NCBI GenBank assembly: GCA_012845835.1 | Contig: JABAKD010000021.1 | Location: 5,408,477-5,472,476 of the forward strand | Reading direction: 5' to 3' | From: Undaria pinnatifida | Taxonomy: Eukaryota > Sar > Phaeophyceae > Laminariales > Alariaceae | Length of the DNA: 64,000 nucleotides | In this document: positions 3,601 through 55,850 of the stretch, piece by piece | Numbering within the stretch: the stretch's first letter is position 1 | Layout: each line of letters opens with the position of its first letter | The notes under the pieces: model-generated | The model's input: the letters and a program-made list of their open reading frames with translations, nothing else | Told to the model about the DNA's origin: nothing | Databases searched by the model: none | Made by a program: the position numbers and the translations under genes

Positions 3601-3609
3601 GAGCCAATA

Positions 3610-4840: not shown

Positions 4841-4849
4841 ACTGGAGTA

Positions 4850-5925: not shown

Positions 5926-5929
5926 ATGT

Positions 5930-7632: not shown

Positions 7633-7959
7633 GTGTTCCTCGCCATTTTTGGTGGACAACTGCTGTGCTGTCGCGGGTGGCCTGCCATTCAAAGACGAAT
7701 TGCTGCTGTTACACAAGGCGATCTAACAGCTACGCCACAACGATTTGCTGTGATGCATGTAGTGTTCACAGCATACGACACACAAACATTGGGTCACAGA
7801 TAGATGCATACGGTCACGATAAATGCATACGATTTGGAAGTAGACCAGGTCGTCAGTTCACCGTGCCGTATCAGGGGAAAAACGCCTCATTGATTTTCAA
7901 CAGTAAGTATTACACACTGCGATATTTCACAAACAAAGGTCGCCCCACTTGACCTGCCC

Positions 7960-8580: not shown

Positions 8581-8584
8581 TATA

Positions 8585-35790: not shown

Positions 35791-36395
35791 GGGGAAGCAG
35801 GGAGTGTTACATCTTTAAGAACGGCAATATCTTCCCGTACATGGAGAAGTGGGGGGATCGCAAGTTCGAACACGGGCGCGAGAAGGGAAGGAAAGACGAG
35901 CGAGAGGGAGGGGGGAAGGGTTGAGAAGCGGGCAGCCCCGAGGGGGGAGGGGGAGGGGGTGTTGGCGGGGAGGAGAAGAACAAGAAGAACGAATTAAGAT
36001 ACTGGTCTTGCCAGAGCGCAGGGTCAACAACGTACGATTTCGGACGGGTGGACGAACGCAAGCACAGCGAGGGTCACCTTGTGGACCCGAAAAGCTGAAA
36101 GACCAATATCGAGAGGCGGCCGACACCGGGGTCAGTCAGACCGATCAATTCACGTGATAAAAAACGGGTTCGGGGCGGGGGGGGGCGTAGGGGCGAAAGA
36201 CCAGAGAGGAACAGGAACAGAAGGAGGGGACGGAAAAGGGGGAGGCAATAGGTTACGAAGAGGATAAGGAAACACGCGGGAAAGGGCGTGCAAGCGGAAG
36301 GGGCAAAGGAGAGTATGGAAAAGGAGCCGTACAGGACCAGGAAGAACGTACTTGTGGCATTGGGGCGGAAAGGCGGTGAATAAGAAGTACTGAGG

Positions 36396-36651
36396 AGTCG
36401 TTCTAAGGTGGCCTCTTCAAATTTTCTTTAATGAAATCGCCGGTTTCAAGACCAGCTCCCGGTCGTATCTCCTGGAATACGGTGTGTGTCTCTCGACACC
36501 CTCCCCGACGTCATCGAGATCGATAGGCCTTTGCACCAAAGAAAATTTATGAGTACGGTTTTTTCAATAGCATCCTTCCTCGTGTCGAGAAGCCATGAAA
36601 CGTTCGTTGAAGAAAATCGCTGGTTTCATGGGGGCTATCGCGGAATCAGTC
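36396..36651 (+). mobile_element. AGTCGTTC-family MITE, copy 2, inside the retrotransposon
   Basis: It begins AGTCGTTCTAAGGTGGCC and ends GGGGCTATCGCGGAATCAGTC. Internal landmarks match copies at 24644 and 56273 (GAAATCGCCGGTTTC, CCAGCTCCCGGTCGT, CTTCCTCGTGTCGAGAAGCC, GAAAATCGCTGG). TGAG lies on both sides (36391-36394 and 36652-36655) and could be a short target duplication. It post-dates the retrotransposon insertion. Confidence 0.7.
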
Positions 36652-36699
36652 TGAGCTGGCAAAATGGGGGCAGAGCGACGACGGCCAGGCCGCGGGCTC

Positions 36700-36985
36700 A
36701 AAGAACCAGGGGTGTATGAAAAAGTGGCCGCGCAAAGAACCAGGGGAGGGAGGTGCAGCAACGAGGCCGTACACGATCAAGCCGGGAGGGAACGCGGCAA
36801 CAGGCTACGCAAAGGGAAGGGGGGGGAAGTGGGCGGTGATTGGCTCGTACATGACCAAGGGGGAGGGGGACGCGGCAACGAGGCCGGGCAAAGAACGGGG
36901 GGGGGGCGGAGGCGGCAACGGAGCCGTACAGAACCTGGCGGGGCGGGAGCGGGTCCAGGGGGCTGCACAAAGACAAAGGGGGGGA
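36700..36985 (+). repeat. G-rich minisatellite, GCGGCAACGAGGCCGTACA type
   Basis: Four or more diverged copies of a unit containing GCGGCAACGAGGCC, then GTACA, a CAAAGAACC or GATCAAG word and a GGGGGAGG tract, spaced about 35-80 bp. It lies between ORF1 and the reverse transcriptase of the retrotransposon. Open frames here are repeat-driven on both strands. Confidence 0.5.
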
Positions 36986-37499
36986 AGCGGACGATGACGG
37001 GACCGCACACGTTCACAACCGGTGACCTTTCGGCAACGGGGTCGGAGGGATGGGACGTAGAGAAGGGGCGACGCACGAGGGGGGAATGACAGATCGTAGC
37101 AACGGGACTGCGTACGAGTTCAAGCGCGAGGAACGGGAGGCGGTCCTCATGTGGAGGAGCGCGCTAGGGCGCCTGGAGAAGACAGGGGCAGACGCAGACG
37201 AACGAGATCGACTGTTGGGGGTCGTGGCTAGGTTGGTTGGGAGAAGAGAGGGGACGTAGGGAAGGTGGTGTGGGCTTTAGGTGGAGAGCTGCTCGCACCA
37301 CATATTGACGTAGAGCAAGTGAAGAATGTTTTCGGGGAACAACACCAGATCGACCAGTTCGCACTGCTGGAACAGATGGCGAGGGTAGGCGCGCCGGTGG
37401 ATGTGGCACCAGGAGGTAAGGTAATCTCGAGCGGGAACTGGCATAAGGGAACCGAAGCAGCGCCAGACGACACGTGGTCGAGGTGTAGGAGAACCCAGT

Positions 37500-38170
37500 G
37501 GGAGACGTCAAGAAGGTAAGAGCGATCGTGATGCCGGTGAGACTATCGCGGAGAGTGCGAGGATCAATCCGGTGAGGGTGGTGGAAGAAAAAGGGAAGAG
37601 GAGGATAGCCTATGATTCGACGTTCAGCAGCAAACCGGAGCAACGGGGGGGGGGCGGGGGGCGACCGGCTAACAACACGACGTACTCGGTCCAGATTCCG
37701 GAACGCCACCTGATGGATGTGATGGGCCAAAATATCAAGAGGGCGCTGGGGCTGCGGGACAAATTCGAGATAAGTGAAAGTATCCTGATACAGAAGATAC
37801 ACGTGAAGAGCGCTTTTTGGCAGGTGGGAGTGGACGCAACAGGGGCAGAAACCTTCTGGTACGTGCGGAGAGGGTATTTGTTTATCGACTTGCGGTTGCA
37901 GTTGGGATGAAGGGGGAGCCCAGGGTGGTAAAAAGTGATCGCCAGCGCGATCCAGCAGGCACAGCGGCAGACGACAAAGGCATCGGCGACGGTCCTAGCC
38001 GCGGCAAGGACGCCACAGCGCATGTCCGAGTCGCGGGGCGTACGGGTTGTAGCGGTAGAGCCGCTGCCACGGGGCTGCATAGTCGAGGAGGTGGAGAGGG
38101 GAGGGGAGCAGGACCCAGCGTGGGTCGTCTTCCTCATGGATGATGCGGTTTCGGTGGAATTGCAGTAAGA
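37500..38170 (+). pseudogene. Reverse transcriptase of the tyrosine-recombinase retrotransposon
   Basis: One frame runs 37572-38168 with only two internal stops. Blocks in order: RRIAYDSTFSSKPEQ, a poly-Gly insert from a G tract, the palm motif KIHVKSAFWQVGV (about 37795-37835), FWYVRRGYLFIDLRLQLG, a GWRGSPGWW-like block (codons 37911-37935, two of them now stops), VIASAIQQAQRQT and the active-site FLMDDAVSVE (about 38130-38160). The first catalytic Asp of the palm is His here (HVKSAF where DVKSAF is usual), while the second box keeps both Asp as MDD. It would have made element cDNA. The His substitution and stops make it inactive. Confidence 0.75.
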
Positions 38171-38639
38171 AGCAGAGGGGGGAAGGTGCTGAGCGCTGTC
38201 GCAGGCACTGGCGTCGAATCACCACCAGGCGATGGGAGAAAGAGCAGCGGGGGAGGAGTGTCTGCTATCAATTAAGAAGGTGACGGATCCCCCCCCCCCC
38301 GACAGCAAATATTGGGCTGTGACCTACACACGGGGAGAATGACGATATCCTTACCGGGATGCAAGATCAATGACCGACGGGAGATGCTAAAAGAATGACC
38401 CGAGGAGAAAAGCAAGGCAACAAGACGGGCGGTCCTCGTGTTAGCTAGCAAACTGCACCACGTGGCGCGCATGGGCAGACCAGGCCGGTATTTCGTGCGG
38501 CGGCTTCTGCCGCGCAAGCTGCATCTGAACGGGCAGACGAAATGGGGAGGGGGGGGGCTGGAGAAAGGGCAGGGAGAAGACAGAGGGAGTGAGGGTTTTT
38601 AAACTGATGGAAGTGTTCATGGCAGCTGTGGAGTGGTGG

Positions 38640-39260
38640 AGATGGTGCGCTTGGCGGTTAGAGTGGATGGGGTTGGTGGCGCTGTTCTTCCGGTTCGTGA
38701 AATAGCCTCACAGAAGGACCTGGTTTTTCGACGCATCATTCGATGCGGTAGAGGGGCTATGCCTGGAGACGGGGGCGCAATGGAGGTACAACCTGACCGA
38801 GGAAGAGAGAACGAGGACGATTAGGAGCAGGAGGGGGGAGCACGTGAACAGGGTGTCCTTTAATGTTCTGGAGCTGCTCGGGATGGTAATTACGGCATTC
38901 GTGATTATCGTGATCAGGAAGGATAGGCCGGGGATGGTGGGAGAGCCAGTGCTGATGAGGGGGGACAGCTCGTTGGCGGTTCAGAGGGTGAAGAATTGCA
39001 AAGGGAAAAAATGGGAAGTGAGTTCGGGAGTGATGATGAGAGTTTTGGGGGTGTTACAGCAAATAGGCGGGTGGTGTTTCCAGGCAAAGCACGTGCGGGG
39101 GGGTGGAGAACGGGTTAGCAGACGGGATAACGAAGTAGAAGGAAGACGAAATCCAATCAAGGCTGACAAAATAATGCCCCGCCGTCTGGTGGCAAGCCCA
39201 GGAGCTTATAGCGGAAGGAGAGGGGACGTGCTCGGAGACTTTGCGCTCGGCTACGGACGT
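38640..39260 (+). pseudogene. RNase H domain of the retrotransposon
   Basis: The frame from about 38730 to 39110 contains FDASFDAVEG, then RVSFNVLELLGMVITAF, PVLMRGDSSLAVQRV (with the conserved Asp) and GGWCFQAKHVRG. After a frame change, ENGLADGITKWKEDEIQ follows (about 39105-39160). The order matches RNase H domains that follow RT in DIRS-order elements, and the ADGITKWK-type end is characteristic. It would remove the RNA strand of the cDNA hybrid. A stop and frameshifts are present. Confidence 0.7.
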
Positions 39261-39279
39261 GGGTGAGTTGCGAAGTCGA

Positions 39280-40500
39280 GTCGAAAGACGTATGCGCAAG
39301 GTTGGAGAATGTGGGCGAGTTGGAGGATGATGAGGGGGAAAGGGAGCTGGTTGGAGAAGGAGCTGGACGAGTGGGAGTTGGTGGAGGAGCTGACAGAGTT
39401 TATGGCCTACTACTGCGCGGAAAGGAAGAATACGGAGGCGACCGTGGCAGGGAAGTTGATGGCAGTAAACGTTTATCACGAGCATTGGGGGGGGCTGTCT
39501 CTGCCGCTGCAGCATTTCAGCATTTAGGCGGAGAAGAAAGGAATCAGCAGGGCTCATACAGAAGCGGGGAACAAGGCACGGGAAAGGAGGCCGCTGAAGT
39601 CGGAGATGATCAGAAAAGAAAGGAAGAATACGGAGGCGATCGTGGCGGGGGAGTTGATGACAGTGAACGTTTATCACGAGCATTGGAGGGGGCTGTCTCT
39701 GCCGCAGCAGAATTTCAGGATTAAGGCGGTGAAGAAAGGAATCAGAAGAGCGCATTGCAGAAGCGGGGAATAAAGCACGTGAAAGGAGGTCGCTGACGTG
39801 GGAGATGATCAGAGTGGTGGAGGAGAGTGTCGGCGCGTAAGGGGTAGGGGGGAGGATCGTGTGGATCGGGCTGGTCTTGCCGCAACAGCTGTTGCTGACG
39901 GCCTTGGAACTGTTCGCAGAGGAAGGAGGGAAGGTGCACGAGATGTGGCCTTCTTCGAGAAAGGGGCGCACCTGGGACCGGGAAGGAGGAAGGCGGCGGA
40001 TACGGTGGAGATCCGTTTCAACGGGGGAAAAGGAGACCAGGGGAGAAAAGGCGCGGAAGCCGTGAGAACAAAAGGAACCGGGGGGGCGTGGAGTAGGCCC
40101 GGAAGGGAACGAAGTGGACCGGATGGTGGAGCTGGTAGGCTATTATGGGCAGACGGTTCCGGGGGGGGAGAGCGCCCCGTTGATGGCATACAGGAGCGGG
40201 GGAAGGTGGACGGCATGGACGAAGGGGCAAGCGACGTTTTGCTTAAAGAGTGGGCTGAGAGAGAGTGCGGAGGAAATGGAAGGAGCAAGAGAGGGGGGCA
40301 GTGGGAGAGCTGGTTCAAGAGGAATTCGCGCTACACTTGGAAAGCGACAAGGCTGGCAGGGATGGGAGCACAACCGTCGGTGATCCAGAGAGAAGGAAGG
40401 TGGGTGTCGCAGGCATTCATGGGGTACGTGGGATCGAATATGGAAGACCCCCTTTGGGTGTCAAGGATACTGGTAGGGAGGTCAAGAGCGCCTAGCCGAC
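39280..40500 (+). pseudogene. Tyrosine recombinase of the retrotransposon, with 198-bp internal duplication
   Basis: In the N-terminal half the segment TVAGKLMAVNVYHEHWGGLS ... is repeated (39421-39618 and 39619-39816), so the core-binding domain is partly duplicated. The catalytic part continues through RIVWIGLVLPQQLLL, a LFAEEGGKVHEMW block, PLMAYRSGGRWTAWTKGQAT (about 40180-40235), a decayed ALHSLR-like box (reads ALHLES), MGAQPSVIQREGRW and SQAFMGYV with the likely catalytic Tyr (about 40430). It ends NMEDPLWVSRILV. It would insert the circular cDNA by site-specific recombination. The frame changes at least three times. Confidence 0.75.
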
Positions 40501-40574
40501 AGCCGGGGCAAGGGACAAGATGGGGACGCGAGGGGTAGAAAAGGGTAGGTGCGGTCGTAGAACGCGACGTGCGA

Positions 40575-41460
40575 ATGGGCTTCTGGTTGTTGAGGTTATG
40601 TGTCGGGGGTAGAGGGCAGGTCAGCCACGTAAAAAGCCGGGAGAAAGAGCGGGGGAGGAGGGCGGGGGGGGAGGGCAAAGGAAACGGGACGAGGGAGAGC
40701 GTCAGTCCCCCCTACCCCCCCCTCCCCGTAAAGAACGCCGTGGTAAACATGAACACGCATATTTTCGTGAAAAAGAGACCACAATGGAAAAACGTCGGAA
40801 CAGTATGGAGATTGCCGGAACTACGAAGAGATATAGGAATATCGGAGAACTGGGTAATAGGAGGGGGGTTGTTTCAGAGTGAAAAATGACGGGAAAAATA
40901 CGAGGACCTCAGCGGCTATGAGGTAGCAAAGCAGCAGCACAGCAGCAGCGAGTACCGGATTCAACAACCGGTAGAGGTAGAAGGAACCAGGGACCAGGCA
41001 GCAACAACAGCAGCAGTGGTAGCAATAGAGAGAAGATCGGTGGTAGGATCATAGGGGGGTAAAGAGGCAGTACGGGGAAACACCAATCGCAATCTCCCAC
41101 CCACCCGGCCCAATTTTGTCAGGAGTGGGAGGGCTAACGCGGAGGTGAGGGGGTGGGGGGCGTGGGGAGGACGGGAAGGAAGGGCAGGGGTTAATTCATT
41201 GCTCTTCCTGTTTTTGTATATTGGTTCCTTCGTGGGGCGGGGGGGGGGGGTTGTGGTTGTTGGGGTTATCTGTCGGAGTAGAGGGCGGGTCAGCCGTGTA
41301 CAGTAGACGGGGAATGGAGCGGGGGGGGGGTGGGGGGGGGGAGGGAAACGGGACGAGGGAGAGCGCCAGTTTCCACCCCCCCCCCCCCCCCCTTGCCCCT
41401 CCCCCGCGGAGAACGCCGTGATATTTATGAGCATGCATATTTTCGTGAAGTGGGAGGTCA
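40575..41460 (+). repeat. Right split direct repeats B1-A2-B2 of the retrotransposon
   Basis: B1 (40575-40770) and B2 (41245-41460) share GGTTGTTG-GGTTAT, TGTCGG, GTAGAGGGC, GGTCAGCC, a G tract, GAAACGGGACGAGGGAGAGCG, a C tract, GAACGCCGTG and GCATATTTTCGTGAA. A2 (40771-41100) repeats A1. The spacer between A2 and B2 is about 140 bp. Order B1-A2-B2 follows the tyrosine recombinase directly. Confidence 0.75.
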
Positions 41461-41467
41461 AATACAG

Positions 41468-42910
41468 CATTTCTTATCGACTCATAGCTGAAGTTAATAT
41501 AATAAGTATCACAACGGCGGGGGGGGGGGGGTTAACACAGCTAAAATAATGTAAACAGACAACCAAATTCTACATGCATGCCTTTAAAAATAGATTACTG
41601 TCTGCTGCAGCTGTTACATCCAAAGTTGATATGAATTAAGGCCCAAATTGGAGTAATCCAGTTGCATCCATAGTCGTCATATCATATAGATTTTCATGTG
41701 TCAAAAATAATTTCAAGCATTATTTGAGTCGACTCGTCATATACATGGGAAAAAAAGAATACAACTGACGATGGAAAATGGGGTGGGAACTTCTGCCACT
41801 TTGGTGAGTTGTGGGATAGGAAAACCTGTGTGCGAACGTCGGTATGGGATGGGAACAACTGGGAGGACGGCGGGCCGGGAATCAGTCGGGACGGGAACAA
41901 TATGCCTTAAGTCGTGACGGTAGACGGCGGGAACAGAGCCCAAGGTCGGGAAGGGGTCGGGAAGTCGCGTACGGGAACGAAATACACTCGGGATTAACGT
42001 TCTCGTCTCGACCACATTTTCCTGACCCGCCCATTACCGCGCGTACCCTTGGGAAATTCATCAATATAGAAACATCCATATTGTATCTATCTGAAAACCC
42101 CAACAACTACGGGTACATGTACGTATATCTCGTCACCGAGCACGTGAGCATCCTCAACAACCCCTCCGCTTTTTTCTGCTCTGGGAACGAAACAACCCAC
42201 AGCATCGCTCGTCATACCCCAGTGATCCAAAACAAGATCATCATGTATTCAAAACTCAGTAGTACTCTCAAAACCCAAATACCACACAAGAATCGAAACT
42301 CAGATTCAATCCAAAATAGTAGAACTGCAAGCGTACGCGCGGTCATGGTTGGGTCGGAAAAATGTGCTCGAGTCGGGAATTGGTCGGGACGGGAACGGGA
42401 ATCACGATGCATTTCGTTCCCGACCACGACTGTCCGATCCGTTCCCGACCTCGGCATCTGTTGCCACCATCTATCGTCCCAACTTACGGCATCTTGTTCC
42501 CGTCGCGACTGTTTCCCGTCCCGCCGTGTTGTCGATTCCCGAGTTTTCCCGTCCCGCCGTCCGCCCAGTTGTTCCCATTCCATCCTGACGTTCGCACCCA
42601 ATTTCTCCCATTTCGCAACTCATTCAAGTGCCAGATGTTTCCATCCCATTTACTATATGGGTTGTGTATTTTTTTCCATCATGTGACTAGTCCTGCTATT
42701 TACGGATAGATGTAAATGGGTAGATCCAATTTTGATCATTCAACATTGGATGCGGCAGCTGCAGCAGCAGTAGTCCATTAAAGGTATGTAGAGTAGATTG
42801 TCCAATTAATTTTTCAATCTTGTAACCCCCCCACCCCCCCCCCCCCCCCCCCGCTGAGCTTTTTTGTGATTTGTTTTAATACCTTAGCTATGAGTCGACA
42901 AATACCTGCT
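41468..42910. mobile_element. Foldback element: ~580-bp inverted arms, ~275-bp spacer
   Basis: The left arm (41468-42050) and right arm (42328-42910) are imperfect inverted copies over their whole length. Outer ends are CGACTCATAGCT and AGCTATGAGTCG. Next come a G tract facing a C tract, then ACATGCATGCCTTTAAA facing its complement, CTGCTGCAGCTG, GGGATGGGAACAACTGGG, GGTCGGGAA words and ACCGCGCGTAC at the inner edge. The spacer is AT-rich. A 280-codon frame (41844-42686) crosses both arms and is an artefact of the palindrome. No transposase is present. It abuts the end of the retrotransposon. Confidence 0.8.
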
Positions 42911-44087: not shown

Positions 44088-44225
44088 ATCAATGTCGCCG
44101 ACCTATACCCTTAATGAGGACACACAAACCGTAATACGCGCGATCAGAGTATCACACCCAGCTTGCAAATATGAGTTTCGACGAAAATCTTGATCTCACA
44201 GCTGGATGGAGTGTATTTTCATTTG
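44088..44225 (-). mobile_element. Poly-G-family arm, minus, head-to-head with next element
   Basis: In complement it reads ATGAAAATACACTCCATCCA, GCTGTGAGATCAAGATTTTC, TCATATTTGCAAGCTGGG, CGCGCGTATTACGG and TCATTAAGGGTATAGG, then stops. The arm of the following element starts one or a few bases away in opposite orientation. Confidence 0.7.
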
Positions 44226-46378
44226 TAATAATATTATAAAAAATGAAAATACACTTCAGCTGTCTGTGAGATCGAAGATTTCGTCGAAAGTCATCTTTGC
44301 AAGCTGTGTGTGATACTCCGATTGCGCGTATTACGAGTTGTGTGTCCTCATTAAGGATATAGGTCGGCGACTCCCCTTACAACTACAGTGTAGCTATCAG
44401 GGTCAACAGGGTGATTTTAGTCAGTCTGTGCGCGGAAACTATAAAACCCGTTTCTGAGGGGGACAAAATCTTACAGCTGTGGAGGGAAATGTATCATTTC
44501 ATCAAGTGAATCCTGTAAGTCGAATAACCGGTGAGGGGGGGGGGCGGAGTTTTGAAGGACGTGGGGGCCTGGTTTTGATCAAAAGCGAGCGGGTTTGGAG
44601 GGGGGGGGGGGGGGGGGGGGGGGGCGAACCATCAGGGCAATCAGAATTTCTGCAGAAAAAAGTTAATAGCGGTGTCTTGTCAAACGTAGAGAGTAGGAAG
44701 CCTATGGATTTTTTTTTGTCGTTTTCAAGCAAGCGGTTGCGTTGACATATACAACAATGCTCTTGATGTAAAGGAAATGAGCACCACGCAGCGATCATCT
44801 ACTACACGCTAGTGCATGTTTTCATGAGCACCACTAACAAGAGCACCAGACATGGACGCGACATCTACAGGACCACAACATCTTCGACGACAGTGGGGGA
44901 GAAAACAGGGCGTATAATCGTACACTAGATAATAACAACAATGTGAAAAAGAAGTACAGACAGTTATGTTAACACTGCGGTAGACCACACTACCAACCAA
45001 ATACGCAGGGTATTTCTTGCCTCCGGCCGTTTGCATGATCGCCTGACAACCTCTACCAAACGAGGTAGCATATGCCTAACAAAGTAAAGTCACCCTCGAT
45101 TTCAATAGTGGTGACATCGCATGCCCACGTCACCTCGCTTGGTGTATTTGTAAGATGTACCTCTGTCTTGGATTTTGCGACCTTAGAGCCCCACATCGGC
45201 ACGGCGAAAATCATGGGCGTAAAATCGTATAAGTGAGACAATAATAATGTGAAAAGGAGATAAAGACAGAGACGCTAAAATTGCGGTAAACCGCACTACC
45301 AATTTATTACATAAGGTATTCCGTATATATACCGTCTGTATGATCGCCTCCCAACCTATGCCAAGCGAAGTATGACCAACGAAGTAACGTAGTTGAGCGC
45401 GTGTACACTAAGCGTTCCTTTCAAAACAACAACGATTCGCATCTCTCCGTGTCGTTCTCACTGACGGTAACTTTGCATGACCACATCATCTCGCCTGTTG
45501 TATTTGGCAATATGCATCTCTTTCTTATATTTAGCGATGTCAGAAAAAAATGGTATCTACATGATTGTAGTGTCGACCAATACCTTGATTTTAATATTTT
45601 ACGTGACCTAAACCTCTTGAAAACCCTGCCCCCCCCCCCCCCCCCCCCCCCCCCCGGCCTTTTTTTTTCCCCTCGATTCCTCTTGCTTAAACACCCCACC
45701 TACTATCGAAATCCGCCAGAGTAATAAACACTTCCACGCCCTGGATATCGCCTCGTTATCGTTTCAGAGCCGTAAATGCCGCTGCTGCAATTCCCACCCA
45801 CCCCCGCCCCCAACGCCCCCTCCTTCCCCACCACCCGCAATATCGCCTAGATCTAGCACCACGCGTATAGCGAACCCCTACATCTATGCGACCTAAAGCC
45901 CTTCCCCCCCGCCCCCGCCCCCTCCAGCCACATTCCCCCCCCCTCCCCCACAAGAAATATTTGTTGTTTCCACGCACAAATTGACCTGCACCACCCGTTC
46001 CCTCCCCCCCCTTTCCTCCTCCCGCCCCCCTTTTGATCAAAATCAGGCCCCCACGTCCTTGAAAAATCCGCCCTCCCCTCACCGGTTATTCGACTTACAA
46101 GATCCAGTTGATAAACAGATGCATTTCCATTCACAGCTGTAAGATTTTGTCCCCCTCAAAACCGGGTTTTATAGTTTCCGCGCACAGACTGCCTAACATC
46201 ACCCTGCTGACCCTGATAGCTACACTGTAGTTGCAAGGGGAGTCGCCGACCTATATCCTTAATGAGGACACACAAGCCGTAATACGCGCGATCGGAGTAT
46301 CACACACAGCTTGCAAAGATGAGTTTCGACAAAGTCTTCGATCTCACAGCTTGAGTGTATTTTGATTTTTATAATTTA
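44226..46378. mobile_element. Poly-G-family composite element, both arms present
   Basis: The left arm is 44226-44640 (plus) and the right arm is 45590-46378 (minus). The left arm includes the 25-base G run at 44600-44624. The right arm includes a 27-base C run at 45629-45655 and the long form of the family (units ending in C tracts, GTGCTAGGTCTAG-type block in complement near 45855). The interior, 44640-45590, holds a tandem duplication of unrelated sequence. No transposase is visible. The inward-pointing arms would be long terminal inverted repeats. Confidence 0.6.
44906..45525 (+). repeat. Tandem duplication, about 305-bp period, inside the composite element
   Basis: Blocks beginning GGGCGTATAATCGTA (about 44910) and GGGCGTAAAATCGTA (about 45215) share AATAATGTGAAAA, a TGCGGTAGACC/TGCGGTAAACC word before CACACTACC/CGCACTACC, GGTATT, TGATCGCCT, GTAACGT-like, CACGTCACCTCG/CACATCATCTCG, TTGTATTTG and ATGCATCTC-like ends. 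Non-coding. Confidence 0.6.
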
Positions 46379-46654
46379 TCGGGGAACTTCGGCGAAACGT
46401 GCATTAACGCACGTCCCTCGGCTACACCCCCCTTCCCCCCCCCTCCCCGCTAAATATTTTGCCAGGTACAGAGCAAGGAGTAGTCAGGCAATGTATCGGG
46501 TTCTATTGCTGAAATATCTAGCGGTCTGCGAGACACATGCTAATCATTGGCACTTGAAATTTGATGATACGTTGTACTGAAATATGAAGAATGCACCCCT
46601 CCCCCCCCCCTCGTCGCATTGCACGCAATGCCAAGTGTTAAGTTGGCAGGCTAT

Positions 46655-47310
46655 AATATAATAAAAGCAAAAATACACTACAGCTGTGGTGATATTCAAT
46701 ATTTTGTCGGAACTCATCTTTGCAAGCTGTGTGCAATACTCCGATCGCGCGTATTACGGCTTGTGTGTCCTCATTAAGGATACAGGTCGGCGACTCCCCT
46801 TGCACCTACGATGTAGCTATCAGGGTCAACAGGGTGGTGTTGGGCAGTCTGTGCGCGGAAACTATACAACCCGTTTTTGAAAGGGACAAAGTCTTACAGC
46901 TGTGAATGGAAATGCATCAGTTTATGAAATGAATCCTGTAAGTCGAATAACCGGTGACGGGAGGGCGTTTTTTTCAAGGACGTGGGTGTCTGGGCTTGAT
47001 CAAGAAGAAGCGGGGAGGGGGAGGGCGGGACGGGCGAGGTAGCTCAATCTATGCGTGGAAACTATATATATCTTTGAAGGGGACAAATCTTACGGTCATG
47101 TATATCCTGTAAGTCGTACAACCAGTGAGGAGAGGGTGGAGCGTTCGAGGCGGGGAGGGGGGGGGTGGGGTGGGGGTTGAGGGGGGAAGGGGGGGGGGCG
47201 AAAGGGGTTTTAAAACATCTTCAGGTCCCATAGATGTAGGGGTTTGCTATACGCATGGTGCTAGGTCTACGCGATGGTGCGGGTGATGGGGAAGGAGGGG
47301 GCGTTGGGAG

Positions 47311-47357
<47 letters not shown>

Positions 47358-47760
47358 GAACTGCAGCAGCGTCATGGATGGCTCTAGAAATATAATGAGG
47401 TGAAAACAAGTGCGTGGAAGTGTGTTTTACTCTGGCAGATTTCGATGTTAGGTGGGGGATTTGAGCAAGAATAAGGAACAGAGGGAAAAAAATAAAAAAA
47501 GGACGGAAAGGATGGGGGGGGGGTGAAAGGGTTTTCCAGATATTTAGGTCACATATATAATATAAAAATACTCTCCAGCTGTGAGGTCGAAGATTTGGCC
47601 GAAACCCATATTTTGCAAGCTTGTGTGTGATGCTCCGATCGCGCGTATTACGCATAGCAAAACCCGTGGTGCTAGGTCTAGGTGATCGTGCGGGTGGTGG
47701 GGAAGGAGGGGGCGTTTAGGGGTGGGGGGGGGGGGCGACATGAATTGGAGCTACGACATG
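46655..47760 (+). mobile_element. Poly-G-family element, long form, with second arm and 43-base G run
   Basis: It starts ATAATAAAAGCAAAAATACA and runs through all family landmarks. It has two further internal units (AAACTATATATATCTTTG at 47060), a CATAGATGTAGGGGTTTG block, GTGCTAGGTCTACGCG, the 43-base G run at 47314-47356, ATGGATGGCTCTAG and TTTAGGTCACATA. A second family arm then begins (about 47560-47655), followed by a repeat of the GTGCTAGGTCTAGG block. The last part therefore looks like a tandem or nested copy. Non-coding. Confidence 0.7.
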
Positions 47761-47764
47761 GATG

Positions 47765-48160
47765 GCTTGAAAGACAATGAGGTGCTATATGCCCCCGCCC
47801 CCTTCCCCTTATTGCATGCGATGCCAAGTATCTAGTGGGCAAGTGTTATATGCGTGGTGTACTAGTGCTTGTACTGGGCCTGTTTCGCCTAGGTTTGTGA
47901 GTGATGCTAATCTGCTGTTTTAGGTTAACTTACTTTAAGGTGAGCACTACTTCTACTACTACTTACTACACTACGAAGTACTGAAATATTATACACCAGA
48001 TATATAATAATAGTATTTATGGCATGATCAATGAATGCATTGACACTTTTATTTATCGCATGCAATACGACCGCACCGAAACTCGTACATTCATTATGGT
48101 TTGTCAACGCTGGTTAACTGGAGGTAAACGTTCCACGTGGGGAAGTATTTAATATTGGTA
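47765..48160. other. No supportable gene
   Basis: AT-rich DNA with a CTACTACTT run near 47950. Nothing recognised. Confidence 0.4.
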
Positions 48161-48440
48161 ACTGGTGCTGGGTTCTTGAATGGAAGTCTGGCATGATACG
48201 ACGAGTAGCATTATATGTTGTTGGCTTTGATGCTTGGTTCTTGAATGGGAGCGAGCCTGGCTGGACGCCAACACTGACTGGTATTACTAGTGCTGGGTTC
48301 TTGCATGAAAGCCTGGCATGACACGAATATTTGTGGCGTTGATGCTAGGTCCTTAAGTTGGAGCCTGATTAGACGCGAGCACTGGGCCATGGTGGTATTA
48401 TAAATGCTTAGTTCTTGAGAATGAGATGGTAGAATTCGAT
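48161..48440 (+). repeat. Minisatellite, five diverged 51-68-bp units
   Basis: Units start near 48163, 48229, 48290, 48341 and 48404 with GGTGCTGGGTTCTTG or near variants (GATGCTTGGTTCTTGAATGG, GATGCTAGGTCCTTAAG). They continue with GGAGCCTGGCATGAC-type words. Alternate units resemble each other more, suggesting a dimer of about 120 bp. Confidence 0.65.
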
Positions 48441-48602
48441 TTTCTTCAGCAGTAGAGTGTGATGATAGTTACTACTACTCTCTACCGGTATTTATTTGAC
48501 ATCCTAAGCCCATGAGCTTTACAGGCTCTTGATTGTTGTGGCTTTTAGTCTTTGACGTAACCATGGTATCTATGTTGATATTTTGGTATTATTATAGACT
48601 AG

Positions 48603-49296
48603 ACTACAATAAAAATAAAAAAATACACTCCAGCTGTGAGGTCGAATATTTTGTCGAAACTCATCTTTGCAAGCTGTGTGTGATACTCCGATCGCGCGTA
48701 TTACGGCTAGTGTGTCCTCATTAAGGATATAGGACAGCAACTCCCCATGGAACTACAGCGTAGCTATCAGGGTCAACAGGGTGATGTTAGTCAGTCTGCG
48801 GGCGGAAACCTTAAAACCCGTTTCTGAGGGGGACAACATCTGACAGCTGTGAAAGGAATTGCATCAGTTTATCAAGGGTATCCTGTAAGTCGTATAACCG
48901 GTGAAGGGAGGGCAGAGTTTTTAAGGGCGTGGGGGCCTGGGTTTGAACAAGAGGGCGCGGGGGGGCGGTAGAACGGGCGGGTCAACTCAATCTGTGCGTG
49001 GAGCCTATAAATAAATCGTTGAAGGGGAAAAATCTGACGGTATTGGAAGGAATGCTCCAGTTTATCATGTATATCCTGTAAGTCATACAACCAGAGAGGA
49101 GAGGGCGTAGTGTTCGAAGGCGTGGGTGGGACGGGGGGGGGCAAAAGTGTTTCATCAGCATTAGGTCGCATAGATATAGGGGGTTTTACATATATATAGG
49201 CCACCCAGTAATACGCGGCATCGGAGTTTCGCACACAGCTGGCAAAGATGAGTTTCGACAAAATCTACGATCTCACAGCTGGAATGCACTATATTT
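48603..49296. mobile_element. Poly-G-family element with both terminal arms, about 690 bp
   Basis: The left arm (from 48603, plus: AAAAATACACTCCAGCTGTG, AAACTCATCTTTGCAAGCTG, CGCGCGTATTACGG) and the right arm (49200-49296, minus, complement AAATATAGTGCATTCCAGCTG) are inverted copies of about 95 bp. Between them lie the family's first unit, a second unit (GAGCCTATAAATAAATCG) and a third partial unit ending in G tracts. This is the most compact complete copy and best defines the element ends. A TAGACTAGACTA word is immediately upstream (48595). Confidence 0.75.
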
Positions 49297-49299
49297 TTT

Positions 49300-49789
49300 C
49301 CATCAGTCCATTGAATTTTGCAGACTCTTGATTCTGGCTTTTAATTTTGATAATTAATGAGACGTTGCGTTGAGGTTGAGATATGAGAGTTTGTGCTGAG
49401 GTCGAGATTCCATTGAAGTTTTATTATTATTGTTGAATCTGATATTCAATGTTTTAATTAGAGGTTTGAAGTTTGTTTCAGTTTTGCATTTCACACACAC
49501 ACACACTTGTTTCAACCCCATTCGCCAGGTAGCTGATAACCGTTTGACTAGTCTAATAGGGCAGACGCTCCTAGTTCGGAGGTTATGGCAACTGAGTGCT
49601 GATTATCGGGTCGATGTTGAAGTCGTCGATTTGGCAGATTTTGTATTTGTCATTCATACTGAACTCTACCTCCTGTCGGAATGATATTTGGTTTTGATAT
49701 TTGGAGTTTGAGCATGATGACAAGGATTTGAGTACTTGGTTATCATGGTTTCAATCGCCGATATGTTTTGACGTCTGTCTGCATTTTCC
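49300..49789. other. No supportable gene
   Basis: AT-rich with a short (CA)n run at 49493-49507. An 84-codon frame at 49430-49684 is not convincing. Confidence 0.4.
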
Positions 49790-49915
49790 CGTGCACCTAC
49801 AAAGAAGGCTGCCGACGGTACGAGGCGTACGAGATGGTCATAAAACCGTCACGGAGTTTGTGTAGACAGCAGGGGTGTTTCTCCCCAGACACATTATATA
49901 TAGGCTCCTCGTTCA
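49790..49915 (+). repeat. Dispersed repeat (GAACCCACCCGTGAA family), 5' fragment
   Basis: It carries GACGGTACGAGGCGTACGAG, AAACCGTCACGGAGTTTGTG and ACACATTATATATAGGCTCC as in the 31800 copy. It is then cut off by a minus-strand poly-G-family copy that begins at about 49895. Confidence 0.6.
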
Positions 49916-50225
49916 AACCCAGGGCCCCACGCCCTTCAAAACTCCGCCCTCCTCTCACCGTTTAGACGACTTACAAGATACCCTCGATAAGCTGATGATG
50001 CATTGTCTTCCACAGCTGACATATTTTGTCCCCCTCAGGAAAGGAGTTGTTAGTTTTCGCGCACAGACTGACTAACATCACTCTGTTGACCCTAATAAGC
50101 TACACTATCTGTAGTTCCGAGGTGAATCGCCGACGTATGTCTTTCACTAGGTAACACAACCCGCAATACGCACGATTGCAGTGTCGCACATAGCTTGCAA
50201 AGATGAGGTTCGACAAAATATGACA
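49895..50225 (-). mobile_element. Poly-G-family fragment, minus
   Basis: In complement it contains GTCGAACCTCATCTTTGCAA, GTGTGCGACACTGCAATCG, CAACAGAGTGATGTTAGTCA, GCGCGAAAACTA, CTGAGGGGGACAAAATATG and TAAGTCGTCTAAACGG. It is more diverged than most copies and lacks the terminal AT-rich end. Confidence 0.6.
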
Positions 50226-50267
50226 ACAAGGCTATGTTTTGGAGGGTTTGTGGATCCCGGTTAAGGA

Positions 50268-50525
50268 TATGGGAGTCTAACAGAACTTCCAGAAGTTTCG
50301 GGTATACGGGTATGAAAGTGTTGCAGAACTTCCAAAAGCTGTAGGTATTGTAACACGGGGCGTGCAGAACTCACAGACGTTCCGGGTACGGGGTATGTAT
50401 GAATGTCCTACAAACCTAACAGAAGTTAGGGTACGGGTGTGAAAGTCTTACACAACTTCCGGAAGTTCCGGGTATTGTGGCACGGTCGTTCACAACTTAA
50501 AGAAGTTCCGGGTACGGGTAATACC
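50268..50525 (+). repeat. Palindromic minisatellite array 1 (GAACTTCCnGAAGTTC)
   Basis: About five diverged units contain ACAGAACTTCCAGAAGTTTC, CGGGTA and a GGCACGG-GTA or TATGAAAG word, spaced 45-65 bp. The core GAACTTCCGGAAGTTC is a perfect 16-bp palindrome in its best form (about 50456). The same unit forms a second array at 51310-51645. Confidence 0.7.
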
Positions 50526-50595
50526 CAGGTAAATGCACACCTTCTCTGGGGGGAGTTCGATTTGAAGTGGAGAATTGCTTCTAACTTGCATCAGG

Positions 50596-50892
50596 ATGGC
50601 ATGTTCTGACTTGGCCAATGTCCCCGAGAGGCAGTATGTCCTAAAACTTCAAGAGAATAATGAATTATCGACCAAACCACCACCGAGAGAAGCGATAAAT
50701 CGTGAACCTCAACGAGTGTCGACCGGGGCAACAGCCGCGCTCACAGCCATACTGCGCTATGATCATGCCATAGCGCACCCCGGCTGTGGCGTTTCAAACC
50801 AAATAATGGCGTTCGCAAGCCCATATTGGCGACCACAGCTCGAGAAGCCAAGTGCCGCGGCGAAGAAGAAGCGAAACCAACAAAAACACTGA
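50596..50892 (+). CDS. Unrecognised 98-aa protein candidate between two palindromic arrays
   Basis: ATG at 50596 opens MACSDLANVPERQYVLKLQE... and the frame closes with TGA at 50892. The product is hydrophilic with balanced composition: a helical N-terminal part, a polar middle (STKPPPREAINREPQR), then AALTAILRYDHAIAHPGCG and a strongly basic C terminus (AAAKKKRNQQKH) that could be a nuclear localisation or nucleic-acid-binding tail. No domain recognised and no splice evidence. The upstream in-frame extension (to 50575) lacks an ATG. It sits between two arrays of the same palindromic minisatellite, which raises the chance that it belongs to one element. Confidence 0.35.
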   Translation: MACSDLANVPERQYVLKLQENNELSTKPPPREAINREPQRVSTGATAALTAILRYDHAIAHPGCGVSNQIMAFASPYWRPQLEKPSAAAKKKRNQQKH

Positions 50893-51309
50893 AGATAGGT
50901 ACTTCTTCTGGACGTCGACGGTTGCGGCATCGCCGTCACGGCAGATCTATGTCCTATTCCGATCGCAAAAAACATTGACAATACTTGCACGCAATACGTG
51001 GTTTCCCGATAGACGCCAATTTCGTACCAGGTAGGTGTAGTATGTTTCCTCCGAATCGAATCGAACTCGATTCGATAAATAAAAGGATTTTTTTTTTTGT
51101 TCAAAGATTTCCTTCGTTCATATAACGGATAGAAACGAAAAATATGGACAGAACCTACAATAATAGATGCTACTTCGTATCATATACGATACGTGCTGCT
51201 ACTACTGTTGTACATTCGGTGTTCGGTTGGTTTCATGACGAGATATGACATAGTAACAGAATGCATAATACACTCTTTAAAGTTTGGGTTATTAAACCTG
51301 AATTAATGC

Positions 51310-51645
51310 ATGTAGGCTCTCCGGGTATTGTAGCAACGGTATACCCGTACCCCGGGTAGTGTTTGTACCACAGTCTTACAGAAGCAACAGAAGCTCCGGG
51401 TACGGTACGGAAGTGTCACAGAACTCACAGAAGTTCCGGGTATTGTGGCACGGGCGTATATAACTCACATACATTACAAAAATGATATACCCGTACCCCG
51501 GGTATTTGTGGCACTGGCGTACAGAACTTCCAGAAGTTCCGGGTACGGGCATGAGTGTCATACACAACTTCCAGGAGTTCCCGATACGGGTATGAATTCC
51601 TACAAAACTCACGGAAGTTCTTTGCACGGTGATACCCAAGAAAAA
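51310..51645 (+). repeat. Palindromic minisatellite array 2 (GAACTTCCnGAAGTTC)
   Basis: Six or so units share ACAGAACTTCCAGAAGTTCC, GGGTACGGG or GGGTATTGTGGCAC, with intervening ATACCCGTACCCCGGGTA, itself near-palindromic. Same family and orientation as the array at 50268. Confidence 0.7.
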
Positions 51646-51685
51646 TACCCCACGTATGGTTTCTGCGTACCAATCTTGACTATTC

Positions 51686-51720
51686 GATCTCACAGCTGGA
51701 GTGTATTTTTACTTTTATAG
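51686..51720 (-). mobile_element. Poly-G-family terminal fragment, minus
   Basis: The complement reads AAAAATACACTCCAGCTGTG then AGATCGA, the first 35 bases of the family arm, and stops abruptly against the palindromic array. Confidence 0.6.
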
Positions 51721-51739
51721 TACTATACGATAGACTAGA

Positions 51740-52030
51740 CTACTAGAGACCTCAGTCGGTCCCCACTAAAACTTCATCTTTATATTATAAAAAATGAAAA
51801 TACACTCCTCCAGCTGTGAGATCGAAGATTTCGTCGAAACTCATCTTTGCAAGCTGTGTGTGATCTTTATATTATCTTAAATAAATATATACTGGTGTTC
51901 TATATTCTACTTTGTTTTTGTTTACATGTACCAGTGTTCTCCTATATTCTACTTTGTTTTTGTTTACATGTACCCCTTCCGTGAGGCCATGAGAACCCAC
52001 CCGTGAAGTCATCCTAGTCCGAGCACCTAC
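51740..52030 (+). repeat. Dispersed repeat (GAACCCACCCGTGAA family), copy 3, interrupted
   Basis: It contains TCCCCACTAAAACTTCATC, ACATGTACCCCTTCCGT, GAGAACCCACCCGTGAA and ACCTACCAGTGGTG in the order of the 31800 copy. A 75-bp poly-G-family arm interrupts it at 51788. A block TCTACTTTGTTTTTGTTTAC (plus ATGTACC) is tandemly duplicated at 51906-51974. Confidence 0.65.
51788..51862 (+). mobile_element. Solo 75-bp poly-G-family arm with 12-bp flanking direct repeat
   Basis: The insert begins TAAAAAATGAAAATACACTC and ends CAAGCTGTGTGTG. ATCTTTATATTA occurs immediately before (51776-51787) and immediately after (51863-51874). The host repeat reads on across the junction. This looks like insertion of a single arm, or loss of the rest of an element by recombination within the duplication. 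Confidence 0.7.
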
Positions 52031-52329
52031 CAGTGGTGGATCTCGACAACTATAATATCCAACGTCCAAGTTATTCATGCCTGTGTCTCTATCGGGTTTG
52101 TTTTCAACACCCCCGTGCCGACCACAGCCGCCGTGTCCGCGGCGTGCAGTGCACCATCCAACGGTTTCGCGCGTTGCTGGTCACGTCGCACTTTTCGTGT
52201 CGTCCATCGCTATTTTTTTCAGAGTTGCGTTATTTTAGAGTTGACGGTGCCCTGCTGAAGGCTGTGGATTCTGTCGAAAGTCGTAGTCGTCACGAGGGCT
52301 ACCTGGTGAGGTGGTGTTGAACTTCAGAC

Positions 52330-52597
52330 AACGGCTACGTACGGTACGATGGGGGCGGCATTTTTTTGGGCTCATTTTTCTTTCCGGGAGCCTAGCGTTA
52401 CTCGCACGAGTGGTTCGTAACGCTTCGTACTATTGTTGGGTTTCGTGATGTGCACCGCCAGCCTGTAAATCGTCGTTACGCGGTCGCCGACACAACATTA
52501 CTACAGCAGCAGTAGATAGATCATTTTTATGCGGATGAAAATCAGTAGGGAAAATTGTGGTGCCCCCTACACCGTAGTCTTGATCTTCACAAGTACT
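52330..52597 (+). mobile_element. GGCTACGGTAG-family MITE, copy 4
   Basis: The left end is CAACGGCTACGTACGGTA with a GGGGGCGGC tract. The right end in complement is CAAGACTACGGTGTAGGGGG. The subterminal palindrome TTACTCGCACGAGTGG lies at about 52410. Non-coding. Terminal repeats are diverged. Confidence 0.6.
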
Positions 52598-52599
52598 AG

Positions 52600-53105
52600 A
52601 CGTTGCATTTTGAAGACTGAGTGAGGCGGCTCAAGCCATGGTACTCATATGTATAGCCTAGTCTATGTATAATTGTGATTTTTTTTTCCCTTCGGACACA
52701 TCTCTTCTTCGTGCTCGCACCTTTGCCCGAAACGTCGGGTAGGGTGGGCTCAATTCGACCGTAGGGCTCACGTTGCCGGGGGTTTCGGCGCGATCCGTGC
52801 AGTGTGTCGCGCGTGGCAAGCCTATGAAACTTTTTGGCCTTGGGCACACTTGAGGCAAATCCCCGGGTTTCCGCAACATCCGCGGGGATTGGGTTTCTGC
52901 ATCCCCTATCCCCGTATACGCACGTATGCTTTTGATGCAAACCGCGTTTTGCTGCTCGTAGAGGGTACACGCACATTTATTTCTCAATTTTTGCACAGAG
53001 AACCATCCTACGATCCTGCCTACCAGCAGCAGTCCATCCCCCTAGCAGCAGCAGGCTGCAACTCTATGCGCGTGCGGCTGCTGCTGTTGTTGTAGGCGAT
53101 TACTT
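52600..53105. other. No supportable gene
   Basis: Chance frames on both strands (for example 52596-52976 minus and 52802-53095 plus). None has a recognisable domain. Confidence 0.35.
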
Positions 53106-53111
53106 TGATCG

Positions 53112-53275
53112 GAGCCTGCGATGCTCTACCCACTTATACGCGACTACCTCTCGCTGCTGCTGCTTCTGCTGCTTCTGTCAAGTGACATGCCGGCATAACG
53201 TGTAAGGATCGTTTGAATATCAAATTAGTACTCAAACGGTCCTCACATTTATTGTTCATGTTGGTGTGTTTCTTA
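53112..53275 (+). repeat. CTGCTG-rich dispersed repeat, copy 1
   Basis: GAGCCTGCGATGCTCTACCC, CGACTACCTCTCGCTGCTGC, TTCTGTCAAGTGACATG, GTGTAAGGATCGTTTGAATA and ACGGTCCTCACATTTAT recur in the same order at 54687-54848. A small inverted repeat GGATCGTTTGA/TCAAACGGTCC lies at its end. Confidence 0.65.
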
Positions 53276-53276
53276 T

Positions 53277-54545
53277 ATTAAAAAAAATGAAAATATACTC
53301 CAGCTTGCTGTGAGATCGAAGATTTTGTCGAAACTCATCATTGCAAGCTGTGTGTGATATTGCGATCGAGCGTATTACGGCTTGTGTGTCCTCATTAAGG
53401 ATATAGGTCGGCGACTCCCCTTACAACTACAGTGTAGCTATCAGGGTTAACAGGGTGATGTTAGGCAGTCTGTGCGCGGAAACTATTAAACTCGTTTCTT
53501 AGGGGGACAAATTCTGACAGCTGTGGAGGGAAACGTATCCGTTTATCAACTGAATCCTGTAAGTCGAATAACCGAGGGGAGGGCGGAGTTTTGGAGGACG
53601 TGGGGGCCTGGTTTTGATCAAGAGGGAGCGGGGTTTGGGGGGGGGGGGGGGGCGGGGGGGCGGACGGGCGGGCAATTTGTGCGTGGAAGCTATAAATCCT
53701 TTAATAAAGGGGATAAATGTGACGGTTTTGGGAAAAAAAAAAAAAATGCACCAATTTATCATAGGGGGGGGTTGGGGCGGGGGTGATGCGGGTGAGACAG
53801 CTCAATCTGTGCGTGGAAACTATACAATATTTTGAGGGGATAAATCTGACGGTTTTGGAAAGAATGCATCAGTTTATCATGCATATCCTGGGTAAGTCGT
53901 ACAATCAGTGAGTAGAGAGAGGGCGGAGTGTTCGAGGGGGTTGGGGGTGGGATAGGGTGGGGGGGTTGGGGCGGTGGCGGGTGGGGGCGGGGGGAGGGGC
54001 TTTAGGTGGCGGTTTGTTACACGTGTGGTGCTAGGTCTAGGCGATGGTGCGCGTGGTGGGGAAGAAGGGGGCGTTCGGGGCGGGGGTGTGGGGGGGAAGC
54101 AGCGGCATGGATGGCTCTAGAAAGATGATGAGGTGATATCCAGTGCGTGAAGAGTTTATTAATCTAGCGGATTTCGATGTCAGGTGGGGCGTTTTAGCAA
54201 GGGAGAGCGAGAAGGGGGGGGGGTGGGGGGGCGGGGAGGGAGGTTTAGGTCACAAAAAATATTCAAATACACTCCGGCTGTGAGATCAAAGATATGTAGG
54301 GGCTTGTTATACCCGTAGTGCTAGGTCTGGGAGATCGTGCGGGTGGTGGAGAAAAGAGGGGGCGTTGGAGTTGAGAGGGGTAAGGGGAAAGAATGAAAAC
54401 TACGTCATGGATGGTCAGAAAGATAATGACGTGATATCAACTGCGTAAAGGTGTTCATTACTCTGGTCGATTCCGGTTGGGAGTGGGGCGTTTGAACTAA
54501 CTAGGCGGAAAAAAAAATTAAAAGGGGGGGGGGGGGGGGGATATA
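53277..54545 (+). mobile_element. Poly-G-family element, longest copy
   Basis: It starts AAAAAAAATGAAAATATACT with the GCTGTGAGATCGAAG arm. It contains three internal units marked by GTGCGCGGAAACTAT (53472), GTGCGTGGAAGCTATA (53679) and GTGCGTGGAAACTATAC (53809), each ending in G tracts. Later blocks are GTGCTAGGTCTAGGCG, ATGGATGGCTCTAGAAAG, GCGGATTTCGATGTCAGG, GTTTAGGTCACA, a short second arm (AAATACACTCCGGCTGTGAG) and a repeat of the GTGCTAGGTCTGGG block. It ends in a G tract at 54525-54540. Two overlapping insertions or a tandem dimer would explain the repeated blocks. Non-coding. Confidence 0.75.
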
Positions 54546-54549
54546 TATA

Positions 54550-55345
54550 GACTAGTCTAACACCGCACCATACCAAGAGAGCACAACGCTACAACCCTGC
54601 CACACAGCAGCAGCGGTAGGCAACACCATTTATGTAACATCGCAAATGACAGACAGCAGACAACATCCGGACAGCACAGCGCTAGCCTGCGATGATCTAC
54701 CCGCCTATACGCCACTACCTCTCGCTGCTGCTACTGCTGCTTCTATCTGCTGCTTCTGTCAAGTGACATGCTGGCGTAAAGTGTAAGGATCGTTCAATAT
54801 CACATTAGTAATTGAACGGTCCTGATATTTATGTTCTTGTTGGTGTCCTTTTTACCGGTGTATGATGTCGTACCGTACCATACCAAGAGAGCACAACGCT
54901 ATATACAAACTCTACCCTACAGCAGCAGCGGTAGGCAACACTATGTAAGATCGCAGATGACAGACAGCAGACAACATGTGGAGAGCAAAACGCTACAACC
55001 CTGCTGCACAGCAGCAGCGGTATGTGACAACATTTATGTGCGCTTGGCGTGTCCTCGCTATGCTGCGGCGAGTTGCTTGTGTCGGAGCCTGTCATAATTT
55101 ATCACCCCACCATACCGCACGTTTCTGCTGTGCTGCCGCTCTGGGTGCGCGTGTCCATCGATGCGGAAACATAGGGACCTTTGTTTGTAATAATAACAAT
55201 GTAGATACCAACCCATCCTTATACATTTACGTCCACAGAGGCAGTTCTTTAACGAGTATCTTTTCTGTTTTATTGCGAAGATCGCGGATGGCAGACAGCA
55301 GACAACGCGCGGGAAGCAAAACGCTACAGGTAGGACCATGTGCGT
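54550..55345 (+). repeat. CAGCAG-rich repeat cluster with embedded CTGCTG repeat copy 2
   Basis: Words ACCATACCAAGAGAGCACAA, ACGCTACAACCCTGC, CAGCAGCAGCGGTAGGCAAC, GATCGCAGATGACAGACAGC and AGACAACAT recur from 54556, 54873, 54948 and 55267. The CTGCTG repeat at 54687-54848 matches 53112-53275, so the poly-G element at 53277 lies between two copies of the same repeat. No gene. Confidence 0.6.
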
Positions 55346-55407
55346 GAGCGTGCTGTATCATCTCTTTACGGTGGCGAGTTGCTTTTTTCTTTTTCATAGG
55401 ATATAAT

Positions 55408-55850
55408 ATACTATAAAAAATGAAAATTCACATAGCTATCAGGGTCAAAAGGGTGATTGATGTCAGTCAGTCTGTGCGCGGAAACTATAAAACCCATTTC
55501 TGAGGGGGACAAAATCTGACAGCTGTGGAGGAAAACGTATTCGTTTATCGAGTGAATCCTGTAAGTCGAATAACCGGTGAGGGGGGGGCGGAGTTTTGAA
55601 GGACGTGGGGGCCTGGTTTCGATCAAAAGCGAGCGGGGTTGGACGGGGGGCGGAAGGGGGGGGGGGGGGGCAATTTGTGCGTAGAAGCTATAAATAAATC
55701 CTTTTAAGGGGATAAATCTGACGGTTTTGGGAAAAAAAAAACTGAAAAAAAAAAATGCACCAGTTTATCATAGAGGAGGGGGGGGGGGGTTGGGGCGGGG
55801 GGGGGGCGGGGGGGGCAGCTCAATCTGTGCGTGGAAACTATAGCATATAT
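55408..55850 (+). mobile_element. Poly-G-family element, internal deletion of the arm
   Basis: It starts TATAAAAAATGAAAATTCAC but jumps straight to ATAGCTATCAGGGTCAAAAG, so about 130 bp of the arm and its inner flank are missing. Then come GCGCGGAAACTATAAAACCC, CTGAGGGGGACAAAATCTGA, GGACGTGGGGGCCTGG, a G tract, a second unit (GAAGCTATAAATAAATCC) and a third start (GTGCGTGGAAACTATAGCAT). Confidence 0.75.

Follow-up and report, generated by a model that had tools for sequence, protein, structure and literature searches.

A truncated G-tract repeat family in Undaria pinnatifida, probably derived from a Penelope-like retrotransposon

Family copies in the window

A 64,000-nucleotide stretch of the Undaria pinnatifida genome (contig JABAKD010000021.1, positions 5,408,477–5,472,476; referred to here as the window; GC content ~50%) carries copies of a dispersed repeat family with long G tracts. 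Mapping with a library of four family sequences gives 15 pieces totalling 6,818 bp, of which 5,803 bp lie between 44 and 56 kb, where an initial annotation had placed a clustered repeat family. The repeats are very probably 5′-truncated copies of the non-coding 3′ region, or pseudo-long terminal repeat (pLTR), of a Penelope-like retrotransposon (PLE) that encodes a GIY-YIG nuclease upstream of a reverse transcriptase (RT)-like domain. The initial annotation rightly saw a transposon family: copies are numerous, one end is defined and a relative with coding capacity exists. The class that it gave, an inverted-repeat transposon, is wrong, and the copies are not miniature inverted-repeat transposable elements (MITEs) either.

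The arm described there, TATTATAAAAAATGAAAATACAC, is the one fixed end that each copy has. Strands of window copies are given below in arm orientation, that is, antisense of the element. The 20-mer TATAAAAAATGAAAATACAC has seven matches in the window with up to three mismatches allowed, against 0.01 expected. In arm orientation, the non-coding part opens with a tail of ~88 bp, followed by unit A and related B units; next come one to ~14 repeats of a ~412-bp monomer with G tracts, then region X, composed of diverged tandem units of ~250 bp, and further sequence. By arithmetic, loci L028 and L037 form one copy of ~7.3 kb that contains an array of the 412-bp monomer. Among 65 oriented copies, 172 stretches with a G-quadruplex-type motif are in arm orientation and none in the opposite one (nested copies may count twice); the repeated internal units with G tracts are thereby borne out, and as judged by sequence these units contain candidate G-quadruplexes. 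The cluster was also said to lack coding capacity, and no open reading frame (ORF) of at least 200 amino acids lies within 44–56 kb; the 12 such ORFs of the window are all elsewhere, and Pfam returned nothing for ten long ORFs of the window, none of which lies in the cluster.

At the left of the window, a 5′-truncated copy of ~220 bp (4848–5069, +) and an older, opposite copy (5763–5916, −) were both recognized by the library. Inverted arms had been proposed here, and two opposite copies are indeed present; the ~690 bp separating them are unmatched by the library and there is no sign that the two are mates. Another 5′-truncated copy, of ~640 bp (8585–9223, −), was found by the library and carries the target repeat GATATAT in the test described below. 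Within the cluster, a truncated copy (44094–44233, −) stands tail to tail with a truncated copy of ~394 bp recognized by the library and ending in a G tract (44232–44625, +). Following these are a long copy (44711–46376, −) with tail, G/C-tract units and then region X in its diverged ~250-bp tandem units, and a copy (46654–47788, +; pieces 46654–47096, 47234–47469 and 47554–47788) in which units A, B and C are joined by a degenerate tail inside the copy and by another C unit. The inverted arms reported at 48603 are likewise opposite copies, here two separate ones lying head to head: a truncated library match (48609–49141, +) and a truncated copy of ~92 bp (49208–49299, −), which had been taken as the second arm, with a gap of 66 bp by BLAST. 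Further along are a diverged library match lacking its tail end (49913–50221, −); a very short piece of ~41 bp of tail (51683–51723, −), outside the 15 library pieces; an 82-bp copy between perfect 13-bp direct repeats, ATCTTTATATTAT (51783–51864, +); the longest plus-strand copy, with tail, A, A′, B, C, degenerate tail and C′ (53276–54540, +); and a copy that retains the A/A′ units and 20 bp from the start of the tail, most of which is missing (55410–55842, +).

By eye, a repeated flank with the inverted motif ...GGATCGTT..ATTAGTA..AACGGTCC is seen at 53120–53270 and 54680–54900, and the copy at 53276 sits between these two units. Strings of the type TAGACTAGACTA / TAGACTAGTCTA, also noted by eye, recur beside copies at window positions 48590, 51735, 54545 and 5935, with similar strings in L010.

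Fixed end, truncation and insertion sites

Genome-wide counts refer to an assembly of 511 Mb in 68 contigs, in which exact matches to the 20-mer TATAAAAAATGAAAATACAC number 3,775, whereas the reversed 20-mer, used as a control, has none. Copies picked solely by this exact 20-mer begin at about TA(N)TATAAAAAATG, with a few varying, and are preceded by unrelated DNA. Their other end is variable. For 39 copies (40 rows, with one alignment file dropped), the inward ends lie at 23, 24, 26, 27, 64, 87, 87, 88, 88, 111, 127, 156, 241, 243 and onwards to more than 3,000 bp, with 14 of them below 250 bp; the longer lengths are rough, being derived from chained matches, and chaining set some long-copy ends too early. 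Across the family, the variable end lies between 23 bp and ~7 kb from the fixed end. Many of the copies listed have no mate arm within up to 4 kb, and similarity beyond the arm runs on for hundreds of base pairs in some and stops at varied points in others; the proposed ‘~95-bp terminal inverted arm’ is in fact a single fixed end.

Matches with at most one mismatch number 28,198 at offset ~55, 9,494 at ~280 and 860 at ~3,400 in L033 (reversed controls 0, 0 and 1), and a second 20-mer, at offset ~105, has 11,849 exact matches. This 33-fold drop towards one side fits 5′ truncation, with differing conservation of the segments as a confounder. A shared point ~3.4 kb in was considered as the 5′ end of the element and dropped, as copies continue beyond it. 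When re-read against the tail by eye, the lengths 26 and 27 both become 25, giving two groups of four ends, each within 2 bp, an arrangement that log-uniform draws produce with a frequency of 0.015% and that never arose in 20,000 uniform draws. Because the first group spans 4 bp before re-reading, and both range and cluster rule were set with the data in view, preferred RT stop points in the tail are a lead only.

Target repeats were tested in 36 of the 65 oriented copies (arm identity at least 95% and end inside the locus). Exact repeats of at least 7 bp across the insertion occur in 12 of the 36, whereas 2,000 re-pairings of the flanks give 4.0 on average and at most 10; the mean repeat length is 5.42, which the highest of the 2,000 re-pairings equalled, against 4.69. 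Clear duplications are present in a minority of copies and vary in length up to 13 bp, the clearest being those at window 51783–51864 (ATCTTTATATTAT, 13 bp) and in L010 (CGTCTCTATTA); AT-rich strings account for some of the other cases.

Related empty sites were found for 4 of the 18 insertions tested among the loci examined. Compared with its empty site L020 (AGTTTATTATGG), L036 has an insertion with TTATTAT duplicated on both sides; L002 compared with L004 also has an insertion with a duplication; and L005, aligned with a long interspersed nuclear element (LINE) copy in L039, has ~25 bp of tail and a further four or five bases between two AATATATA. These additional bases (CTCCG, L005 1493–1497) separate the tail end from the target repeat in an insertion that is otherwise simple and 25 bp long. 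The comparison of L016 with its empty site gives no clear duplication. As the duplications at these sites include TTATTAT or TATTAT, the motif TATTAT is at least in part target sequence. Taken with the fixed and variable ends, the duplications identify the arm as the reverse strand of a retrotransposon 3′ end; short, variable duplications with empty sites are what target-primed reverse transcription should leave, and a DNA transposon with fixed duplications should not. The ends and target duplications that the initial annotation had proposed to look for thus proved to be one fixed end, duplications in a minority of copies and a few empty sites. Flanking the copy in L002, and acting there as its insertion target, is a 41-bp tandem repeat. 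Repeats of this type (CAGAACTTCCAGAAGTTCCGGGTACGGG) also occur at window 50257–50520 and 51324–51620 and in L002, L004 and L008.

An ordinary tandem satellite would account for the 412-bp monomer arrays (L028/L037). It is the least probable explanation: copies are dispersed, one of their ends is defined and they sit in insertion sites, and the empty sites exclude a satellite for the dispersed copies concerned. A satellite, or copies without any defined end, had been named at the outset as speaking against a transposon; a defined end and dispersed insertions were found instead.

Opposite copies lie head to head with gaps of at most 16 bp at eight loci (about seven independent, L044 and L046 being near-identical), and two more widely spaced pairs in the window are 66 and 85 bp apart. 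Some of these look like nesting, as in L044, where one copy is old and the other young; in L041, a short inverted piece picks up where the direct part stops (reference 886 versus 972–897), as in twin priming; and L011 has one rare tail variant at both ends. Such pairs, with their tails outward, are the evidence for an inverted-repeat DNA transposon or a foldback element, and foldback elements do have long arms with subrepeats. Solo truncated copies, however, bear target duplications at the truncated end, and on this ground the reading with terminal inverted repeats or foldback arms was rejected. Terminal inverted repeats at both ends with a fixed target-site duplication (TSD) were not found in the copies tested, and no transposase was seen, no search by transposase family having been made. 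Nor are tail-out pairs in excess: by manual count, neighbours closer than 3 kb comprise one tail-out, three tail-in and four same-way pairs among 100 exact tails listed, and four, four and six, respectively, among 100 places listed for the second 20-mer (offset ~105), so that most close pairs are probably independent insertions. An inverted-repeat origin is therefore very improbable.

Coding copies and a possible insertion route

The region beyond X is mostly 98–99% identical between copies (40 scored of 1,003 candidates), and walking from it in the 5′ direction leads to L053. There, in sense order, lie three separate ORFs: a 424-residue GIY-YIG ORF (2959–4227; Pfam PF01541, E value 8.7e-7, 29.6 bits against a cut-off of 22.6), a 143-residue ORF and a 384-residue RT-like ORF; that GIY-YIG is encoded 5′ of the RT-like ORF was read at this one locus. 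The 143-residue ORF contains ITKVDKAANCLSV, presumably a DKG-type motif, and the 384-residue ORF contains GGAINKQSSGIFMGTAPAPDLAN and KRFIDDI, which we take to be RT motifs B and C. Its RT identity is putative, resting on motifs seen by eye (GIFMGTAPAPDLAN, FIDDI, GIFMGTAPAP and VDKA). The 384-residue ORF has 121 genome matches (396 candidates, 107 scored), many of them with stops; four of the 121 are stop-free, in open frames of 806–1,100 residues. A single frame of at least 884 residues in L055 holds both the DK and the FIDD motif, and a Pfam search of 883 of its residues gave no significant match; the GIY-YIG part would lie outside that locus. Pfam searches of eight ORFs from L047 and L042 gave sub-threshold matches only.

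Linking these ORFs to the repeats are nine loci at which the RT-like ORF and the X-side region are 2.3–3.5 kb apart in consistent orientation (4 of 40 listed beyond-X places and 5 picked from the ~3,400-offset matches, with 35 of the 121 RT matches compared). In the L033 copy, both flanks of the coding part are present and the coding part itself is missing. Directly behind the coding copy of L053 is a second tail-to-X unit in direct orientation (5802–8896), 95% like L033 over 2.4 kb and with no match past 8896; this partial tandem marks the non-coding region as a pLTR. For the coding element with the same arms that the initial annotation had proposed to search for, the GIY-YIG and RT-like ORFs 5′ of the repeat region are the candidate.

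Truncation and target duplications are likewise shown by LINE insertions, and the family could be a non-autonomous retrotransposon, similar to SVA or a short interspersed nuclear element (SINE) and bearing a variable number tandem repeat (VNTR), that uses a LINE RT and has PLE genes as unrelated neighbours. The genome has two LINE families, related to each other (L038 and L039; many contigs), whose intact ORFs of 1,250 and 1,267 residues could supply the enzyme. Against this, the two LINE copies examined, one per family, end in (AC)n and (CAA)n without the family tail, and at nine loci PLE-type ORFs are found 5′ of region X, correctly oriented; LINE dependence is accordingly unlikely. A LINE 3′ tail as origin of the family tail is, as far as these two copies go, not supported. 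The window itself holds a LINE RT remnant (2564–3840, −) that is ~30% identical to the 1,250-residue ORF of L038.

Several observations weigh against a PLE origin. The RT-like ORF has no RVT profile match in Pfam or NCBIfam and no sequence match in PDB; the GIY-YIG, DK-motif and RT-like pieces of the L053 coding copy fall in three ORFs; the coding copy of L049/L053 is linked to the tail family through shared B, C and X units; walking 5′ along copies did not locate the 5′ end of the element; no target repeat of at least 7 bp was found in 24 of the 36 copies tested; a conserved RNA stem in the tail was dropped, covariation support being absent; and no hammerhead ribozyme matched Rfam at gathering score in ten sources. 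The ribozyme is not known to be universal in PLEs. One fixed end, graded truncation, target duplications and GIY-YIG/RT-like ORFs together nevertheless point to a retrotransposon of the Penelope type and away from MITEs and other inverted-repeat DNA elements. A tail peptide, MSFDEIFDLTAGVYF, was also considered and dropped: all 150 scored matches are in short frames of 30–92 residues, with no match among the papers searched. Exact-pattern scans of viral and prokaryote sequence collections gave no matches.

In a Penelope-type insertion, AT-rich DNA would be nicked at TATTAT-like sites, and the 3′ end of the target would pair with an RNA end ...AUAAUA, which RT would copy, giving the G-rich (arm) strand as first-strand cDNA. 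Frequent early fall-off of RT would leave short solo tails, and coding copies would presumably give rise to the non-coding ones in trans. Two copies meeting head to head, through nesting or through priming on both target strands, would form the inverted pairs. Priming on both strands is possible because the Anolis PAc element, described as cleaving AT-rich DNA with a 5′-ATT motif and as carrying a hammerhead ribozyme, cleaves and extends both strands (PMC11167929, PMC3846280). More speculatively, and with the balance tilted against it, intact-tailed head-to-head pairs may be single events primed on both TATTAT-ended strands with two RNAs, RT stops at ~24 and 87 nucleotides may leave the 23–27-bp records, and the G-rich first strand and the arrays may shape how far RT reaches.

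With tens of thousands of tails, many of them extremely short, with related empty sites and with junctions of either orientation, this genome could give a direct reading of target choice, of priming and of where RT drops off. The family could account for part of the 36.1% of ‘unknown’ repeats reported for Undaria (PMC7058681). Elsewhere in the window, positions 34000–42000 have a strong GC skew of 0.30–0.41 over a long stretch, with a purine-rich plus strand.

Comparison with known elements

Some pairs resemble the inverted arms with subrepeats of MITEs or foldback elements, whereas truncation here is one-ended and accompanied by target duplications. Tandem GC-rich arrays within a retrotransposed unit are shared with SVA and other VNTR-bearing non-autonomous elements. 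SVA is a LINE-dependent non-autonomous element with a VNTR, whereas the genes adjacent to the present family are PLE-like.

PLEs with an N-terminal GIY-YIG and ‘permuted domains’ have reportedly been described by Craig et al. in 2021. GIY-YIG upstream of an RT-like ORF, truncated copies and partial-tandem pLTRs are common to those elements and the Undaria family, the likeness being known from ORF order and motifs; the Undaria family differs in its 3′ region or pLTR of several kilobases, its G-tract monomer arrays and its tens of thousands of tails. Arrays of the 412-bp G-tract monomer and insertions of only ~25 bp are unusual features of this family, of which there is no description in the literature searched, a coverage that mostly excludes subscription papers.

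In the Penelope/Poseidon clade, the nuclease is described as C-terminal (PMC11167929, PMC3846280), whereas here it is encoded upstream. The pLTRs of A. vaga are ~200 bp long, and G-tract monomers are not among the features described there (PMC11167929, PMC3846280). Tandem or partial-tandem pLTRs, inverted pLTRs that are mostly head to head and TSDs of 8–10 bp are given as PLE features (PMC11167929, PMC3846280). The A. vaga Pen families and Anolis PAc share with the Undaria family their tandem and inverted pLTRs, a head-to-head preference and a variable TSD, to which PAc adds the AT-rich ATT target. More generally, the family is like PLEs in its GIY-YIG and RT-like ORFs, partial tandems, head-to-head inversions, 5′ truncation, short variable duplications and AT-rich ATT targets.

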